Assembly (NCBI RefSeq): GCF_034058155.1
Contig: NZ_CP139148.1
Location: 3,348,001 to 3,412,000 of the forward strand
Source of the DNA: Flavobacterium sp. KACC 22761
GTDB taxonomy: Bacteria; Bacteroidota; Bacteroidia; Flavobacteriales; Flavobacteriaceae
DNA length: 64,000 nucleotides
Reading direction: 5' to 3'
Positions 14,783 through 21,859 of this stretch are shown here, piece after piece. The translations under genes and the position numbers were made by a program. The stretch's first letter is position 1, and each line of letters opens with the position of its first letter. The notes beneath the pieces were generated by a model, which saw nothing but the letters and a program-made list of their open reading frames with translations, did not search any database and had not been told where the DNA came from.

Positions 14783-16072
14783 TTACCCCAAGAAATCTTT
14801 CAATTCCTCATAACTCCCAATCTTCACACTAACTTTCTCCTCATTAATAACACTCTCAATTTGAGCAGGAATAGGAAGCGTAATTCCTAGCGCCGGTTCA
14901 ACAACATCTAAGAATTTAATAGGATGCGCCGTTTCTAAGAAAATACCAATTGCGTTGGGGTGTTTTTCCAATTCTTTTTTTAAACCTAAATAACCAACAG
15001 CGCCGTGCGGTTCTGCTATATAACCGTCTGTGTTGTAAATTTTCTTCATCGCTTCAAGCGTTTCTTCATCAGTATAACTATAAGAAGAAAAGTCTTTTTC
15101 GAAAGCTTTTAAGTCATTGTTGTATAATTCCTGAATTCTAATAAAGTTGCTTGGGTTTCCAACATCCATAGCGTTGGAGATTGTGGCTTTAGAAGGTTTC
15201 GGGTCGTATTTTCCGTTTTCTAAGAATCTTGGCACCGTGTCGTTTACGTTTGTAGAGGCAACAAAATGTTCAATTGGCAAACCTAATTTTTTTGCCATAA
15301 TTCCGGCACAGATATTCCCAAAGTTTCCGCTTGGGCAAGAGAAAACTAAAGGTTTGTTTTGGCTTTTCAACGCTTTATAAGCAAAGAAGAAATAAAACAT
15401 TTGCGGTAACCAGCGCGCAATATTAATAGAATTCGCCGAAGTCAGGTTTTTATGCGCTAAAGTTTCATCTAAAAACGCTTTTTTCACCATATCCTGACAA
15501 TCGTCAAAAACGCCGTCAACTTCTAATGCTTTTATGTTTTGCCCTAAAGTCGTCAATTGTTTTTCCTGAATATCGCTGACTTTTCCAGACGGATATAAAA
15601 TAACAACATCAACGCCGTCAACGCCTAAAAATCCGCTCGCAACGGCTCCGCCTGTATCTCCAGAAGTAGCTACTAAAACGGTGTTTTTAGAATCTTTTTT
15701 GTCTTTGTTGAAATAACCCAAACAACGCGACATAAAACGCGCTCCAACGTCTTTAAATGCCATTGTCGGGCCGTGGAATAATTCTAACGAATAGATTCCG
15801 TTTTCGACTTTCACCACCGGAAAATCAAAAACTAAAGTTTCTGCAATGATTTCTTTTAGTTTTTCTGCTGGAATTTCGTCTCCAACAAATTGTTTGATCG
15901 CTTCAAAAGCGATTTCTTCGTGGCTTAAACTTTCGATTTTCTCAAAAAAGGAAGGATCAAGCGGTGTAATGCTTTCTGGGAAATATAATCCTTTGTCAGT
16001 TGCTAATCCTTGTATAACTGCTTCTTGAAAAGAAACTTTTGGGGCATTATGGTTTAAACTGTAGTATTTCAT
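14783..16072 (-). CDS. thrC: Threonine synthase
   Basis: 429 residues; converts O-phosphohomoserine to threonine with PLP in the cytoplasm. Seen in sequence: N-terminal YYSLNHNAPKVSFQEAVIQGLATDKGLYFPE, the PLP-lysine motif FHGPTMAFKDVGARF (Lys near 108), and the phosphate loop SGDTGGAVASGF. Also present is SCPSGNFGNICAGIMAKKLGLP, as in the long (E. coli-like) threonine synthases. It is the last gene of thrA-thrB-thrC, 97 bases after thrB, and is followed directly by a terminator. Confidence 0.95.
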   Translation of the reverse strand: MKYYSLNHNAPKVSFQEAVIQGLATDKGLYFPESITPLDPSFFEKIESLSHEEIAFEAIKQFVGDEIPAEKLKEIIAETLVFDFPVVKVENGIYSLELFHGPTMAFKDVGARFMSRCLGYFNKDKKDSKNTVLVATSGDTGGAVASGFLGVDGVDVVILYPSGKVSDIQEKQLTTLGQNIKALEVDGVFDDCQDMVKKAFLDETLAHKNLTSANSINIARWLPQMFYFFFAYKALKSQNKPLVFSCPSGNFGNICAGIMAKKLGLPIEHFVASTNVNDTVPRFLENGKYDPKPSKATISNAMDVGNPSNFIRIQELYNNDLKAFEKDFSSYSYTDEETLEAMKKIYNTDGYIAEPHGAVGYLGLKKELEKHPNAIGIFLETAHPIKFLDVVEPALGITLPIPAQIESVINEEKVSVKIGSYEELKDFLG

Positions 16073-16086
16073 TTTGATTTTATTTG

Positions 16087-16171
16087 AACACGAATTTCAC
16101 AGATTGTCACTAATTCTTTGCGTTTAAATTATTACACAAACCAATTGGTGTAAATTCGTGAAATTTGTGTT
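16087..16171. repeat. Inverted repeat AACACGAATTTCAC / GTGAAATTTGTGTT in the thrB-thrC gap
   Basis: The left arm aacacgaatttcac (16087-16100) and right arm gtgaaatttgtgtt (16158-16171) pair at 13 of 14 positions. The right arm runs into the thrB stop codon. The 97-base gap between thrB and thrC consists of this element, with the loop holding a second, imperfect pairing. It may set relative message stability; that is inference. Confidence 0.6.
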
Positions 16172-17093
16172 ATATAATTCTTACGCCATCAGGATTGATT
16201 TTCGAAACGTGAATTTCATACGGTAAATTCATTTTTTCGTAAACGTCGCTCATGGCTTTTGCGATTTTTTCGGCGGTATCTTTTCCTCTGCTTAAAGCGA
16301 AAATCGACGGGCCTGAACCTGAAATTCCTGAACCTAAAGCGCCGTTTTCATAAGCCGTTTGTTTGATTTGATCAAATCCTGGAATTAAAACGCTTCGAAC
16401 TGGTTCAACAATTTCATCATGAAGTGATCTTCCGATCAAATCATAATCTTTGGTGTAAAGACCAGCAACCAATCCGCCTACGTTACCCCATTGCGTTATA
16501 GCGCTTTTTAGCGAAACATTTTGTTTTAAAACCGAACGAGCGTCAGAAGTTTTTAACTCAATCTGCGGATGAACAACCGTTGCGTACAATTCCTCAGGAC
16601 TGTCAATTCTAATGATATCCAAAGGCGAATAGCTTCTTACCAAAGTAAAAGCGCCTAAAAGAGCAGGAGCAACGTTGTCGGCATGTGCGTTTCCGCTGGC
16701 TAATTTCTCGCCTTGCATTGCAAACTGAACCAAATCTTTACGGGAATAAGGTCTTCCCAATAATTCATTTATTCCGAAAACCGCTCCGGCAGAACTTGCA
16801 GCACTGCTTCCGATGCCGCTTCCGGCTTTGATATTTTTATAAATTTCGATTTCGAATCCAAAATCCAATTCGTCTAAAGTTTCCAGCATGGCCAAAGCGG
16901 CAACTCCAGAAACGTTTTTCTCGGTTTCCAAAGGCAAATCGGCACCCACAATTTTAGTGATTCGAACTCCTTTTTGATCGACTTTTCGAACAATCATTTC
17001 ATCGCCCGCATTGTCTAAGCAAAGTCCCAATACGTCAAATCCGCACGAGAGGTTGGCGATTGTAGCGGGACAGAATAATTTTATTTCTTTCAT
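16170..17093 (-). CDS. thrB: Homoserine kinase
   Basis: 307 residues from the ATG at 17093; a longer frame (to 17183) translates repeat sequence and is rejected because the family starts at KEIKLFCPATIANLSCGFDVLGL. GHMP kinase that phosphorylates homoserine with ATP. Motifs: the ATP-loop KAGSGIGSSAASSAGAVFGINELLG, and the third GHMP motif GALGSGISGSGPSIFALS near the C-terminus. Second gene of the thr operon, separated from thrA by a 161-base repeat-filled gap. Confidence 0.95.
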   Translation of the reverse strand: MKEIKLFCPATIANLSCGFDVLGLCLDNAGDEMIVRKVDQKGVRITKIVGADLPLETEKNVSGVAALAMLETLDELDFGFEIEIYKNIKAGSGIGSSAASSAGAVFGINELLGRPYSRKDLVQFAMQGEKLASGNAHADNVAPALLGAFTLVRSYSPLDIIRIDSPEELYATVVHPQIELKTSDARSVLKQNVSLKSAITQWGNVGGLVAGLYTKDYDLIGRSLHDEIVEPVRSVLIPGFDQIKQTAYENGALGSGISGSGPSIFALSRGKDTAEKIAKAMSDVYEKMNLPYEIHVSKINPDGVRII

Positions 17094-17160: not shown

Positions 17161-17255
17161 GCCACGAAGGCGCTAAGACGCAAAGATTTTTTTATTTTTT
17201 GCGCTAAGTCTCAAAGGAAAAACTTAAAAACTTAGCGTCTTAGTGCCTTAGCGGC
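17161..17255. repeat. Imperfect 25-bp inverted repeat between thrA and thrB
   Basis: The arms 17161-17185 and 17231-17255 pair at 21 of 25 positions. The words are gccacgaaggcgctaag and its complement, with further gccacgaaggcacaaag text at 17108. The right arm reaches the thrA stop. The sequence belongs to the degenerate repeat vocabulary found in most gaps of this window, here inside an operon. Confidence 0.6.
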
Positions 17256-19702
17256 TATACATTCCCAATGCGTATCACGTCAGCAAAAATTCCTGATGCG
17301 GTTACAGCTGCTCCAGCGCCGGCTCCTTTGATCAATAAAGGCTGATCTACGTAACGATCGGTGTAGAAAAGCACGATATTGTCTTTCCCTTCTAAATTAT
17401 AGAAAGGATGATCTTTTGGAATGAATTGCAGACCAACGCTTGCTTTTCCGTTTTCGAATTGCGCTACGTATTTCAGTCTTGAATCTTTTGCTAAAGCTTC
17501 TTTATAAATGTTCTCGAAATGAGAAGCATGTTTGATTAACGACGCAAAGAAATCTTCGTTATTTGTTGTTGCTAAACATTCTGCTGGCAAAAACGATTCG
17601 TTTGCAATGGCGTCAATATCCATTTCGTAACCGCTTTCGCGAATTAGAATTAGGATTTTACGAGCCACATCGATTCCGCTTAAGTCGATTTTCGGATCTG
17701 GTTCTGTGAAACCTTGAACTCCAGCTTCTTTCACCACATCGTGGAAAGAATTATTCTCATCAAAATTGTTGAAAATAAAGTTCAAACTTCCTGATAAAAC
17801 CGCTTGAATTTTATGCACTTTATCGCCAGATGCAATTAAGTTTTTTACCGTATCAATAATTGGCAATCCCGCACCAACATTCGTTTCAAACAAGAAAGGA
17901 GCGTTGTATTGACGAGATAAGCTTTTTAGTTTTTTATAGTTGTCGTAAGCAGATGAACAAGCAATTTTGTTGCAAGTTACAACCGCAATACTTTCTTTTA
18001 AGAATTTTTCATATAGATCAGAAACGCCTGCATTTGCTGTAATATCCACAAAAATGCTGTTTCTTAAATTCAGTTCTTTGGCACGAGCGATAAATTCTGT
18101 CGGAATTGCTTCTTCACCTTTGTCTAAAGTCGCTTGCCAGTCTTTTAAAGAAATTCCGTCTTCGTCAAACACCATTTTTCTTGAGTTTGATAAAGCAATG
18201 ACACGAACATTGATCTTTAAAACATCTTTTAAGAATTTCTTTTGATTGTGGATTTGCTCGATGAATTTTTCACCCACATTTCCAACTCCCATTACAAATA
18301 AATTAAGCTGTTTTGTGTTTTCTTCGAAGAAATTCTCGTGCAAAGTATTCAAGGCTTTTTTAACGTCTCTTTCATTAATTACAGTCGAAATATTTCTTTC
18401 AGAAGCACCTTGTGCAATCGCGCGAATGTTTACGTTGTTTTTTCCTAAAGTACTGAACATTCTTCCGCTCAAACCTTGGTGGTTTTTCATGTTTTCACCT
18501 ACCAAAGCAATGATGCAAAGGTCTTTTTCTACATAACAAGGGTCGATTTTGTTTTGCGAAATTTCGATTTCGAATGCACGGTTGATCGCAGCTTCAGCAT
18601 TATCAGCATCCGAATTTAAAATTCCGATGCAAATTGAGTGCTCAGAAGAAGCCTGAGTGATAAAAATTACGTTGATTTTTTCCTGAGACAATACTTCAAA
18701 CAAACGTCTAGAAGAACCTGCAACTCCAATCATTCCTGGACCTTCAAGAGTTAAAAGCGAAATATTATCGATATGGCTGATTCCTTTTACAACTGTATCT
18801 TTTGATAAAACAACGTCAGAAATTAAAGTTCCTTCCGCTTCTGGCTCAAAAGTATTTTTGATTAAAATCGGAATGTTTTTTCTTAAAACTGGTTGAATTG
18901 TTGGCGGATATAACACTTTTGCTCCAAAGTGCGACAATTCCATCGCTTCTTGATAAGAGATATTTGCAATTGGCTGTGCTTGTTTTACAATTTTCGGGTT
19001 TGCAGTAAACATTCCGTTCACATCAGTCCAGATTTCAAGTTGTTCAGCATCAATTGCTCCAGCGATAATCGCTGCAGTATAATCAGATCCGCCACGTCCT
19101 AAAGTCGAAGTGATTCCGTCTAAAGTTTGTGCAATAAATCCAGGCAGAATATTGATTTTTGCTTCATTCTGAGCAAAATATTCCTGAATTAATTTATTAG
19201 AAATTTCAAAGTTTACAACCGCTTTTCCGAAATCAGCATTTGTTTTGATCAATTCTCGGCTGTCTTTGTAAATGGCGTCGTTATTGATTTGCTGATACGC
19301 TTGTGCGATAATGAAAGAAGATAATAGTTCTCCAAAACTTAAAATGGTATCGGCAGTTCTTGGAGATAATTCTCCTAAAAGGAAACAGCCGTCTAATAAA
19401 GTTTCTAAGTGATTAATGATTCTTTTTACATGGCTCAACAAACTGCTTTGTTCGCTTACCGGAATCAATTCTTTTAGAGTGTCAAGGTGTTTTTTCTCGA
19501 TTTCGGCAACAACTTCCCTGAAGCTTTCGTCATTTGCCGCTGCTTTTGCCGCTGCCAATTGCAGTAAATCGGTTACCTTGCTTAATGCAGATACTACAAC
19601 AACTAATTGATCTTTTTCGGCTTTTTGTTTAACGATTTCAAGAACGAGTTTTATATTTTGAGCATTGGCTACCGAAGTTCCGCCAAATTTTAATACTTTC
19701 AT
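17255..19702 (-). CDS. thrA: Bifunctional aspartate kinase / homoserine dehydrogenase
   Basis: 815 residues from the ATG at 19702; a frame extending to 19843 adds an unrelated 47-residue tail and is rejected because the kinase starts MKVLKFGGTSVANAQN. Domains: aspartokinase (1-~285; KFGGTSV, GRGGSDYTAAIIAGA), ACT regulatory repeats (~310-455), and homoserine dehydrogenase (~465-815; NAD(P) loop VMGVGNVGEKFIEQI, FVDITANAGV, LSGSLNFIFNNF). It performs the first and third steps from aspartate to threonine. The fusion and length match E. coli ThrA. ACT domains imply feedback control by threonine, and the leader peptide upstream adds transcriptional control. Confidence 0.97.
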   Translation of the reverse strand: MKVLKFGGTSVANAQNIKLVLEIVKQKAEKDQLVVVVSALSKVTDLLQLAAAKAAANDESFREVVAEIEKKHLDTLKELIPVSEQSSLLSHVKRIINHLETLLDGCFLLGELSPRTADTILSFGELLSSFIIAQAYQQINNDAIYKDSRELIKTNADFGKAVVNFEISNKLIQEYFAQNEAKINILPGFIAQTLDGITSTLGRGGSDYTAAIIAGAIDAEQLEIWTDVNGMFTANPKIVKQAQPIANISYQEAMELSHFGAKVLYPPTIQPVLRKNIPILIKNTFEPEAEGTLISDVVLSKDTVVKGISHIDNISLLTLEGPGMIGVAGSSRRLFEVLSQEKINVIFITQASSEHSICIGILNSDADNAEAAINRAFEIEISQNKIDPCYVEKDLCIIALVGENMKNHQGLSGRMFSTLGKNNVNIRAIAQGASERNISTVINERDVKKALNTLHENFFEENTKQLNLFVMGVGNVGEKFIEQIHNQKKFLKDVLKINVRVIALSNSRKMVFDEDGISLKDWQATLDKGEEAIPTEFIARAKELNLRNSIFVDITANAGVSDLYEKFLKESIAVVTCNKIACSSAYDNYKKLKSLSRQYNAPFLFETNVGAGLPIIDTVKNLIASGDKVHKIQAVLSGSLNFIFNNFDENNSFHDVVKEAGVQGFTEPDPKIDLSGIDVARKILILIRESGYEMDIDAIANESFLPAECLATTNNEDFFASLIKHASHFENIYKEALAKDSRLKYVAQFENGKASVGLQFIPKDHPFYNLEGKDNIVLFYTDRYVDQPLLIKGAGAGAAVTASGIFADVIRIGNV

Positions 19703-19889
19703 TTTTATGATATTTTTTAATAAGGTGCACAAATTTTGAGTAAAAGGTTCAATGGTTATTAACTGTGAACTGAGACTGAAATCTGCAACTATTTTTTTTC
19801 TTTGTAAATATTTTTTATGTATCCAATAACTCTCTTCTTTCAAGAAAAAAGTATAGGTAACCTAGGATTATATGTGAAAATGTATACCC
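19703..19889 (-). promoter_or_regulatory. thr attenuator region between leader peptide and thrA
   Basis: On the minus strand the leader stop lies in a hairpin TACCCC-TTA-GGGGTA. A TAGGGGTATA / TATAATCCTA pairing follows, then a TAGG-TTA-CCTA stem before a run of six T (complement of 19845-19850). These overlap, so they could be mutually exclusive, as expected for attenuation. The pairing was judged by eye, and the exact terminator and antiterminator are not assigned. The rest of the gap up to the thrA ATG shows nothing more. Confidence 0.5.
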
Positions 19890-19991
19890 CTAAGGGGTAG
19901 TAGTTGTTGTAGTAGAAATAATCGTAACAGCAATCGCAGTTCTAGTTTGAACTGTCATAGTAGATTGATATTTTGTGCTGTTATTTTTCAT
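19890..19991 (-). CDS. thrL: Threonine operon leader peptide
   Basis: A 33-codon frame (ATG at 19991, TAG at 19890-19892) upstream of thrA. It runs MKNNSTKYQSTMTVQTRTAI and ends AVTIISTTTTTTP. Twelve of 33 residues are Thr, six in a row at the end, plus three Ile. This is the signature of a threonine/isoleucine-sensing attenuator like E. coli ThrL. A second in-frame ATG at 19958 gives a 22-residue version closer to the E. coli length. A TACTTTTG box at 20003-20010 would leave only about 8 untranslated bases before the first ATG but about 40 before the second. Which start is used is open. Confidence 0.85.
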   Translation of the reverse strand: MKNNSTKYQSTMTVQTRTAIAVTIISTTTTTTP

Positions 19992-20002
19992 TTTTGATTT
20001 TT

Positions 20003-20010
20003 CAAAAGTA
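20003..20010 (-). promoter_or_regulatory. Putative -7 box of the thr operon
   Basis: The minus-strand sequence TACTTTTG matches TAnnTTTG exactly and lies 12 bases upstream of the first thrL ATG. No clear TTG -33 element is visible at the usual distance. The remaining gap 20011-20344 shows only this and the hutH promoter candidate; no gene is seen. Confidence 0.45.
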
Positions 20011-20344: not shown

Positions 20345-21859
20345 ATGAGAGAGATTCATTATATAAGTACTGAAACCATAACTTTAGAAACATTGCAAGA
20401 AATTTTGAGCAATAATAAAATGCTTGAATTATCTGAAGAAGCAAAAGTAAATGTTCAGAAATGCCGTGATTATTTAGACAAAAAAATGGCAACGCATACT
20501 GCGCCAATCTACGGAATCAATACAGGTTTTGGCTCATTATATAGTGTAAAAATCTCTAACGAAAATTTATCTAAGCTTCAGGAGAATTTAGTGAAATCGC
20601 ACGCTTGTGGCACGGGCGAAGAAGTTCCTTCCGAAATCGTAAAAATGATGTTGCTGCTTAAAATTCAATCTTTGAGTTATGGTCATTCGGGCGTTCAGTT
20701 GAAAACACTGGAGCGTTTAGTTGATTTCTACAATAATGATATTCTTCCTATTATATATACGCAAGGTTCACTTGGAGCTTCTGGTGATTTGGCTCCTTTG
20801 GCTCATTTGTCTTTGCCTTTAATTGGCGAAGGAGAAGTGCTCTTTGAAGGAAAAAAAGTAGCTTCTGCTGAAGTTTTAAAACGTTTTGATTGGGAACCGA
20901 TCGTTTTGCAATCAAAAGAAGGTTTGGCTTTGTTGAACGGAACGCAATTCATGAGTGCTTATGGAGCTCATATTCTAATAAAAGCTTATAAATATTCGTA
21001 TTTGGCTGATTTGATCGGAACGATTTCTTTGGAAGGTTTTGATGGGCGAATCGAACCTTTCAACGAATTGATACATTATATACGTCCGCACAAAGGCCAA
21101 ATTGTAACGGCACAAAGAATTGCTGAATTTTTAGACGGAAGCGAAATTATCGCTCAAGAAAAGAAACACGTTCAAGATCCGTATTCGTTCCGTTGCATGC
21201 CACAAGTTCACGGCGCCTCAAAAGATGCGATTGATTATGTTCGAAAAGTATTTAAGACAGAAATTAATTCTGTTACAGATAATCCAAACATATTTGTTGA
21301 AGCGGATCAGATTATTTCAGGAGGAAATTTCCATGGACAGCCTTTAGCTTTGGCTTTGGATTTTATGGCAATTGCTTTAGCCGAATTAGGAAGTATATCT
21401 GAAAGAAGAACGTATCAGTTGATTTCTGGTTTGAGAAATCTTCCAGCATTTTTGGTTGATAATCCGGGATTGAATTCAGGATTTATGATTCCGCAATATA
21501 CTGCGGCAAGTATTGCAAGCCAAAACAAACAATTGGCAACTCCGTCAAGTATTGATAGTATTGTTTCAAGTAATGGACAAGAAGATCACGTAAGTATGGG
21601 AGCAAATGGTGCTACAAAAGCGTTGAGAGTTTTAGATAATTTAGAGCGTATTTTGGCAATTGAATTGCTGAATGCATCACAGGCAATTGCCTACAGAGAG
21701 CCTTTGAAATCAAGTGATTTCATCGAAATGTTCTTGAGCAGTTATCGTGAAGTTGTGCCTTTGGTAAAAGAAGACAGGATCTTGCATTATGACATTGAGA
21801 ATACCGTTGCGTTTCTAAATAGTTTCCAAATTGAAAACGATTTGTTAACAATGGCTTAA
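20345..21859 (+). CDS. hutH: Histidine ammonia-lyase
   Basis: 504 residues; deaminates histidine to urocanate using a self-formed MIO cofactor. The Ala-Ser-Gly triad that cyclises is in GSLGASGDLAPLAHLSLPLIGEGE. The substrate-selectivity region reads LVKSHACGTGEE, with the Ser-His pair typical of histidine rather than tyrosine/phenylalanine lyases. QDPYSFRCMPQVHGA and SVTDNPNIF are conserved. No hutU, hutI or hutG lies nearby, so either the pathway is split or urocanate is the product of interest. The next gene (DUF47) lies 48 bases downstream with its own promoter-like box. Confidence 0.93.
   Translation: MREIHYISTETITLETLQEILSNNKMLELSEEAKVNVQKCRDYLDKKMATHTAPIYGINTGFGSLYSVKISNENLSKLQENLVKSHACGTGEEVPSEIVKMMLLLKIQSLSYGHSGVQLKTLERLVDFYNNDILPIIYTQGSLGASGDLAPLAHLSLPLIGEGEVLFEGKKVASAEVLKRFDWEPIVLQSKEGLALLNGTQFMSAYGAHILIKAYKYSYLADLIGTISLEGFDGRIEPFNELIHYIRPHKGQIVTAQRIAEFLDGSEIIAQEKKHVQDPYSFRCMPQVHGASKDAIDYVRKVFKTEINSVTDNPNIFVEADQIISGGNFHGQPLALALDFMAIALAELGSISERRTYQLISGLRNLPAFLVDNPGLNSGFMIPQYTAASIASQNKQLATPSSIDSIVSSNGQEDHVSMGANGATKALRVLDNLERILAIELLNASQAIAYREPLKSSDFIEMFLSSYREVVPLVKEDRILHYDIENTVAFLNSFQIENDLLTMA

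Follow-up and report, generated by a model that had tools for sequence, protein, structure and literature searches.

A threonine-rich leader peptide with a stop-codon hairpin and a conserved ATAT box upstream of thrABC in Flavobacterium: a candidate ribosome-sensed attenuator with no U-tract terminator found

The window, by which we mean the whole 64,000-nt stretch of Flavobacterium sp. KACC 22761 DNA analysed here, carries a threonine operon on its minus strand in the order thrA-thrB-thrC, assigned by curated NCBIfam models scoring above their cut-offs. The thrA gene (17255..19702) encodes a bifunctional aspartate kinase/homoserine dehydrogenase I (NF006959, 1049 bits against a cut-off of 726), thrB (16170..17093) a homoserine kinase (NF002288 and TIGR00191) and thrC (14783..16072) a threonine synthase (TIGR00260). 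We infer that thrB starts at an internal ATG; its longest frame begins at 17183. Upstream of the operon and on the same strand, a leader ORF at 19991-19890 encodes the 33-residue peptide MKNNSTKYQSTMTVQTRTAIAVTIISTTTTTTP, in which 12 residues are threonine, six of them in a row. It ends with a TAG at 19892-19890, and a gap of 187 bp separates it from the thrA start at 19702. The first-pass annotation of this DNA had singled out the same frame, and its account of the threonine content agrees with ours. The divergent neighbour of the leader, at 20345, is histidine ammonia-lyase.

We take TAnnTTTG to be the consensus of the Flavobacterium -7 promoter element, and a putative match, TACTTTTG, lies at 20003..20010 (minus strand). 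Of 37 genus representatives, 35 have this pattern no further than 45 nt upstream of the leader ATG, compared to 6.4% of shuffled sequences. With the element at 20010-20003, transcription would start at the leader ATG or just ahead of it, and the leader ORF would thus be the 5′ end of the mRNA. Promoters of F. johnsoniae are described as carrying a -7 element in the excerpted text of PMC6847099.

Several structures can be drawn on the minus strand in and after the leader ORF. Hairpin A (19937..19954; CAGTTC-AAACTA-GAACTG) lies inside the ORF, and its paired sequences differ in other species. Hairpin B (19885..19899; TACCCC-TTA-GGGGTA) is a palindrome that spans the TAG, as had been claimed of the stop codon from the window sequence. 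Nine nucleotides downstream of hairpin B is a conserved, ATAT-containing box, ACATATAATCC (19865..19875). Between the leader ORF and thrA there is also a T6 run at 19850-19845, and hairpin C (19829..19852; ACTTTTTTCT-TGAA-AGAAGAGAGT) has no U tract after it. From hairpin C to thrA (about 19828-19703, minus strand), close relatives fall into two main length classes about 78 nt apart, with the leader stop around position -185 or -107 from thrA.

We compared these features across thrA loci from the genus, the family and the phylum. The genus set combined the best 30 places, 80 places from a second search and 60 hand-picked places (170 in total), where the first two groups may repeat species; three of the hand-picked loci (L162-L164, 38-39% identical) were dropped, no thrA start having been found in them, which left 167. 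An anchor consisting of an AC codon, a hairpin-like stretch and CATA matched 156 of these 167 loci, from which 38 genus representatives were taken. Hairpin and box counts on the representatives, and on a set of 55 leaders, are circular because both were selected by this anchor, and the threonine, hairpin, box and terminator counts were repeated on all 167 loci. Loci from other genera of the family (60) and from the rest of the phylum (40) were hand-picked from match lists, while families f10 and f15 are each represented by the best 30 places of 41 genomes. A comparison of 135 leaders leaves out L352, L354 and L384 as duplicates.

A short ATG frame with at least four threonines in 12 residues precedes thrA at 162 of the 167 Flavobacterium loci, as compared to a frame with at least five in only 0.3-1.0% of dinucleotide-shuffled upstream regions (0.3-0.7% for the non-genus sets), and the threonine-dense leader frame is therefore not a product of chance. 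The remaining five loci have no leader. Raising the threshold to five threonines retains 161 of the 167 loci, including 80/80 named ones, and 39 of 41 representative loci from a set pre-selected by the anchor. The same threshold was passed at 29/60 loci from other genera of the family, 14/40 from the rest of the phylum, and 17/30 and 16/30 of the best places in f10 and f15, none of these four sets having been chosen by leader features. Many genomes outside Flavobacterium in these four sets therefore lack such a frame, and isoleucine codons are also frequent in the leaders found there. It had been proposed to check the Thr and Ile codons across Flavobacterium, with a frame that keeps its length and loses its threonines as the refuting case; this check comes out in favour of the proposal.

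The codons themselves point in the same direction. At the 156 anchored loci, where the anchor codon is threonine by construction, the codons at -1, -2 and -3 from it encode threonine in 147, 147 and 145 cases. Codon -1 is ACT in 130 loci, ACA in 13, ACC in 3, ACG in 1 and an isoleucine codon in 9; within the genus, threonine is conserved while its codon varies at the third base. A threonine sensor, with cognate codons in a short ORF directly upstream of thrABC, is well supported by these sequence comparisons. As a separate observation, the run before hairpin B is partly serine (SSSSS) rather than threonine in three diverged Flavobacterium loci (L157, L158 and L159), possibly a shift in the sensed amino acid.

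Hairpin B is short, mostly 5-6 bp, and its folding energy is better than that of shuffled sequences (P ≤ 0.05) in 86 of 94 leaders. Hairpin B and the box occur together, with no terminator, at 157 of the 167 genus loci; one locus has all three, four have no hairpin and five are leaderless; in three of the four without a hairpin (L057, L132 and L138), the frame reads past the usual stop. We then located the stop codon in 101 leaders from the wider comparison that have hairpin B and no terminator. It overlaps the loop in 44 leaders, has its first base within the 3′ arm in 23 and lies at most 3 nt past the hairpin in 34, a placement that is partly by construction as hairpin B was looked for near the stop codon. 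At each of the three loop-proximal stem positions, 81-86 of these 101 leaders have a C-G pair and 13-15 have a G-C pair. The swapped stem, ACGGG-GTRA-CCCGT, is typical of family f15, and the automatic alignment puts such stems out of register. The comparison thus indicates that the stem is kept through a compensatory C-G/G-C swap between families. L057 (Flavobacterium johnsoniae CI04) lacks the usual TAG within the hairpin loop, and its leader frame extends to 61 residues.

The box was scored in a strict form, CATA[TC], and in a relaxed form, [CT]ATA[TC], that was picked after the sequences had been inspected. The strict box was found in 37/37 genus leaders (a circular count), 12/38 family, 7/11 phylum and 11/14 f15 leaders, compared to 4-8% of shuffles. 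The relaxed box was found in 37/37 (again circular), 30/38, 8/11 and 11/14, compared to 9-14% of shuffles, and in the single f10 leader that has hairpin B only; it is absent from 14 of the 101 leaders. In the other 87, its position varies with a standard deviation of 1.9 nt when counted from the loop end and 5.3 nt from the stop codon, within a search range that was tied to the hairpin. When the measurement was repeated without the narrow range, scanning 66 nt after the loop, 106 of 164 box occurrences fell 11-17 nt past the hairpin loop, and positions counted from the stop codon formed several separate clusters. The spacing between hairpin and box is thus fixed independently of the stop, which points to RNA polymerase as the ruler. 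The distance from box to thrA is variable (standard deviation 35 nt), and several species (L181, L188 and L190) have a spacer between hairpin and box that is not rich in U. A box-like stretch is also present near the start of the leader ORF (about 19980-19957 on the minus strand of the window, and in L158, L160, L181 and L190), where it occurs in two reading frames; 21 of 37 genus leaders contain [AC]ATAT among their first 45 nt.

Other roles for the box were considered and rejected. The sequence ACATATMATCC has seven copies in the window's own genome. Five of the six non-thr copies lie, by position, inside frames of at least 90 codons, and the sixth (L233) is at the edge of such a frame, where a lone short upstream frame has no amino-acid run; we discarded the box as a general element. 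A looser hairpin-box pattern gave one further place in this genome, L171, between two genes, and no short ATG frame (8-59 codons) starts in the 150 nt before it. Across the genus, a pattern of the hairpin-box type is present in 122 of 199 genomes, and most of the listed places resemble thr leaders by eye, the exceptions being four places in G072 and one each in G075, G151, G046, G105 and G057. Several CCCC..GGGGT..CATAT matches in G072 (contigs C9, C18 and C27) are unlike thr leaders and are perhaps a repeated palindromic element. Pairing of the box with hairpin A, with GGGGTAT or with sequence past hairpin C gave matches that were weak or limited to a clade. A promoter -10 role was likewise set aside, little being kept beyond the ATAT core outside the genus.

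The hairpin A region folds better than its shuffles (mean z -1.69; P ≤ 0.05 in 20 of 37). One candidate antiterminator was tested, a pairing between the 3′ arm of hairpin A and the Thr run, and it found no support: in 57 leaders it scored -4.35 within species and -4.39 between species (P = 0.57), no better than with permuted partners. Covarying terminator and antiterminator stems had been suggested as a check; no intrinsic terminator was found in the window's leader, and the one pairing tested shows no species-specific fit. Hairpin C is AU-rich and variable, with a mean folding z of -1.38 and P ≤ 0.05 in 18 of 55 anchor-selected leaders, where 5% would be 2.75.

The same genome offers three further amino-acid leaders for comparison. 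The hisG leader (L244; G000:C1, about 3948395) is a longer frame that contains HHHH and whose final 19 residues are MISNQLHHHHFHYCSQAMC; the trpE leader (L277, about 240971) encodes MKILMNNTWWWKNLRQTS, with WWW; and the ilvD leader (L265, about 3965574) encodes MQISVIIITSVVVVNVISTSASGMV, with IIIITSVVVV. Downstream of all three leaders lie a strong hairpin and a long U tract. In a uniform scan, intrinsic terminators were found in 14/14 his, 13/13 trp and 7/7 ilv leaders (medians of -15.6, -15.9 and -12.4 kcal/mol, respectively), which represent 14 of 15 hisG loci, 13 of 14 full-strength trpE loci and the 7 of 14 ilvD loci with a visible leader. All 34 of these leaders pass at -11 kcal/mol or better. 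The same scan found no hairpin followed by a U tract in the window's thr leader. At -6 kcal/mol or better, a terminator is present in 2 of the 55 anchor-selected thr leaders, and at -10 kcal/mol in 1 of the 167 genus loci. Judged from these sequences, peptide-leader control looks general in this genome, and the thr leader, lacking the terminator that the his, trp and ilv leaders have, looks like the odd one out.

Hairpin and terminator are distributed in opposite ways among the thr leaders. The 135 leaders comprise 101 with hairpin B only, 25 with a terminator only, 4 with both and 5 with neither (Fisher 2.6e-18), and the four sets that were not anchor-selected (n = 95) comprise 64, 25, 3 and 3, respectively (Fisher 1.7e-16); both values overstate the evidence because species counts are not independent events. 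In family f10, a terminator is present in 19 of 20 leaders and a hairpin at -4.5 kcal/mol or better in 3 of 20. Family f15 is mixed, with a hairpin in 14 and a terminator in 3 of 18 leaders. Among other genera of the Flavobacteriaceae type, the window's family, the hairpin is present in 38/40 and a terminator in 1/40. Hairpin B therefore appears to occupy the place held by a terminator in other lineages, the two being largely mutually exclusive.

None of the family models examined describes the window's leader. At gathering scores, Rfam gave no match in the window, and Thr_leader (which we take to be RF00506) gave no hit near the leader at E ≤ 1; no family was matched in the further thr loci that we scanned. 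NCBIfam returned no thr leader peptide match, and Pfam matched nothing in the window's peptide and no thr-leader family in a second peptide, the thr operon leader peptide families presumably being TIGR02077 and PF08254. The trp leader of the same genome is a member of the Rfam family Bacteroid-trp (RF01692; 67.2 bits, cut-off 49). Of 20 loci scanned, it alone matched that family, the window's thr leader remaining unmatched, and the his and ilv leader loci of this genome matched no Rfam family at the gathering score.

Bacteroid-trp resembles the thr leader as a Bacteroidota peptide leader that is present in the same genome, but it has Trp codons and a strong intrinsic terminator, and the window's leader has neither. 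The thr leaders of f10 (L347, L351 and others) share the gene, the location and a Thr/Ile-rich leader ORF; they differ in having a strong intrinsic terminator and usually no stop hairpin. The likeness to E. coli thrL is a short Thr/Ile leader ORF upstream of thrA, with isoleucine occurring in the window's relatives. According to the excerpted text of PMC9291695, thrL is linked to threonine and isoleucine levels and contains RNA polymerase pauses, of which thrL1 is NusA-responsive. Unlike thrL, the window's leader has a stop-codon hairpin followed by an ATAT box, and no intrinsic terminator was found in it.

Among the matches listed in our literature search, no title or opening of an abstract describes a leader of the thr operon in Flavobacterium or in Bacteroidota at large. 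The authors of a 2010 study knew of no leader-peptide system, ermC aside, from outside Proteobacteria and Actinobacteria before their own Firmicutes case (excerpt of PMC2965389). Bacteroides sORFs have been called reminiscent of leader peptides, and the excerpt includes no amino-acid operon among them (PMC7366714). Bacteroid-trp appears in Table 1 of PMC2864571, and Bacteroidota leaders may perhaps already be contained in the surveys by Lyubetsky and colleagues (2007, 2010; as cited in the excerpt of PMC4833913). The first-pass remark that such leaders are rarely annotated in Bacteroidota is thus fair for thr within the literature searched and does not extend to trp, whose counterpart is RF01692.

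On balance, and with confidence a little better than even, we interpret the locus as a ribosome-sensed attenuator of thrABC whose output would be a hairpin-dependent pause or termination of RNA polymerase, and not a U-tract terminator. We infer both the type of output and the direction of control. The comparisons support the layout of the mechanism: the promoter would make the leader ORF the first part of the mRNA, and the terminal run of Thr codons (in relatives, also Ile codons) leads directly into hairpin B at the stop codon, with the box about 10 nt further on. In pauses of the his/trp type, a hairpin lies 10-11 nt upstream of the position where the polymerase stops. The distance from hairpin to box in the thr leader is constrained, and that the box is the stop position is our assumption. 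By this analogy, hairpin B would sit in the polymerase's exit channel with the box at the active site and, if free when the polymerase reaches the box, could hold or release it. In the absence of a U tract, a helper factor would probably take part.

A shortage of charged tRNA-Thr would slow the ribosome on the final Thr codons, where it would mask the 5′ arm of hairpin B; the polymerase would then pass, and thrABC would be transcribed more. When charged tRNA-Thr is sufficient, the ribosome would reach the stop codon and leave, hairpin B would fold behind the polymerase, and transcription of thrABC would fall. For hairpin A we would expect the early, polymerase-pacing role known from classic leaders. 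Several considerations count against this mechanism. A ribosome stalled on the first Thr codons would leave hairpin B free and turn the operon down during starvation, and a terminating ribosome also covers hairpin B for some time. The shortness of hairpin B, the spacers that are not rich in U, the low family count of the strict box (12/38) and the missing species-specific fit of the tested antiterminator pairing weigh in the same direction, and hairpin C is left without a part in it.

An explanation that overlaps with ours, and to which we give a modest but real chance, is Rho-dependent attenuation, whereby hairpin B and the box only pause the polymerase and Rho terminates once the ribosome has gone, a stalled ribosome shielding the RNA. 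It would account for a conserved Thr sensor with no intrinsic terminator. A precedent is E. coli toiL, where the excerpt of PMC12121999 describes a ribosome's position on a short uORF controlling the downstream gene with Rho-dependent termination, although toiL senses antibiotics and acts via occlusion of the ribosome-binding site. Against Rho, the stretch between leader stop and thrA is frequently as short as about 65-115 nt in the family set not chosen by leader features (the window has 187 nt) and is partly structured, which leaves little loading room. The classic terminator/antiterminator scheme, in which a weak hairpin would act before the T6 run at 19850-19845, is quite improbable. The run and a small CCTAGGTTACCTA repeat before it are indeed in the window, and canonical thr terminators do exist in f10 (19/20 leaders), but the window has no passing hairpin with a U tract, and the genus count of 1/167 stands against 34/34 for his, trp and ilv. 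The T run itself is thus there, and the earlier reading of it and its alternative hairpins as a terminator is not supported; the proposal of attenuation holds for Thr/Ile leader-peptide control, which the comparisons strongly support, and finds no support for a terminator/antiterminator output.

Control at the level of translation, with leader structures opening and closing the thrA start site, would suit the fairly short distance from leader to thrA in many family members. It is nevertheless improbable: in 100 leaders, the thrA start region is predicted to be a little less paired than when its upstream sequence is shuffled (0.61 versus 0.55 unpaired) and to pair little with hairpin B or the box (0.022), so that occlusion of the thrA start is unlikely, and the distance from box to thrA varies, as noted above. 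A nuclease site at the box, where a ribosome stalled on the leader would protect the message, could explain a short conserved sequence beside a hairpin that is independent of the distance to thrA. It leaves unexplained why the stop hairpin sits where other lineages have a terminator, and we likewise hold it to be quite improbable. The most doubtful reading takes the CCCC..GGGG palindrome for a repressor's DNA operator, the peptide being incidental. The element is palindromic and its sequence is nearly invariant in the genus, but another family has swapped the stem to GGG..CCC with pairing retained, loop lengths range from 3 to 6, and the Thr codons are conserved.

Our preferred reading, a ribosome-sensed attenuator acting through a polymerase pause or termination, leads to a broader and more tentative suggestion, in which our confidence is somewhat below even. 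Bacteroidota may have a second kind of attenuator, a stop-codon hairpin with a YATAT box about 10 nt on, forming a ribosome-responsive polymerase stop or pause site that is free of a U tract and has been swapped with a terminator among lineages at the thr operon. If true, a leader peptide could control an operon by means of a compact polymerase signal and a short hairpin placed at the peptide's stop codon, with no intrinsic terminator. Three canonical attenuators (his, trp and ilv) share a genome with the thr design, and f10 uses a terminator for the same operon, so that the two designs are directly comparable. Such a system would offer a way to study pausing, termination factors and the coupling of transcription to translation in Bacteroidota.
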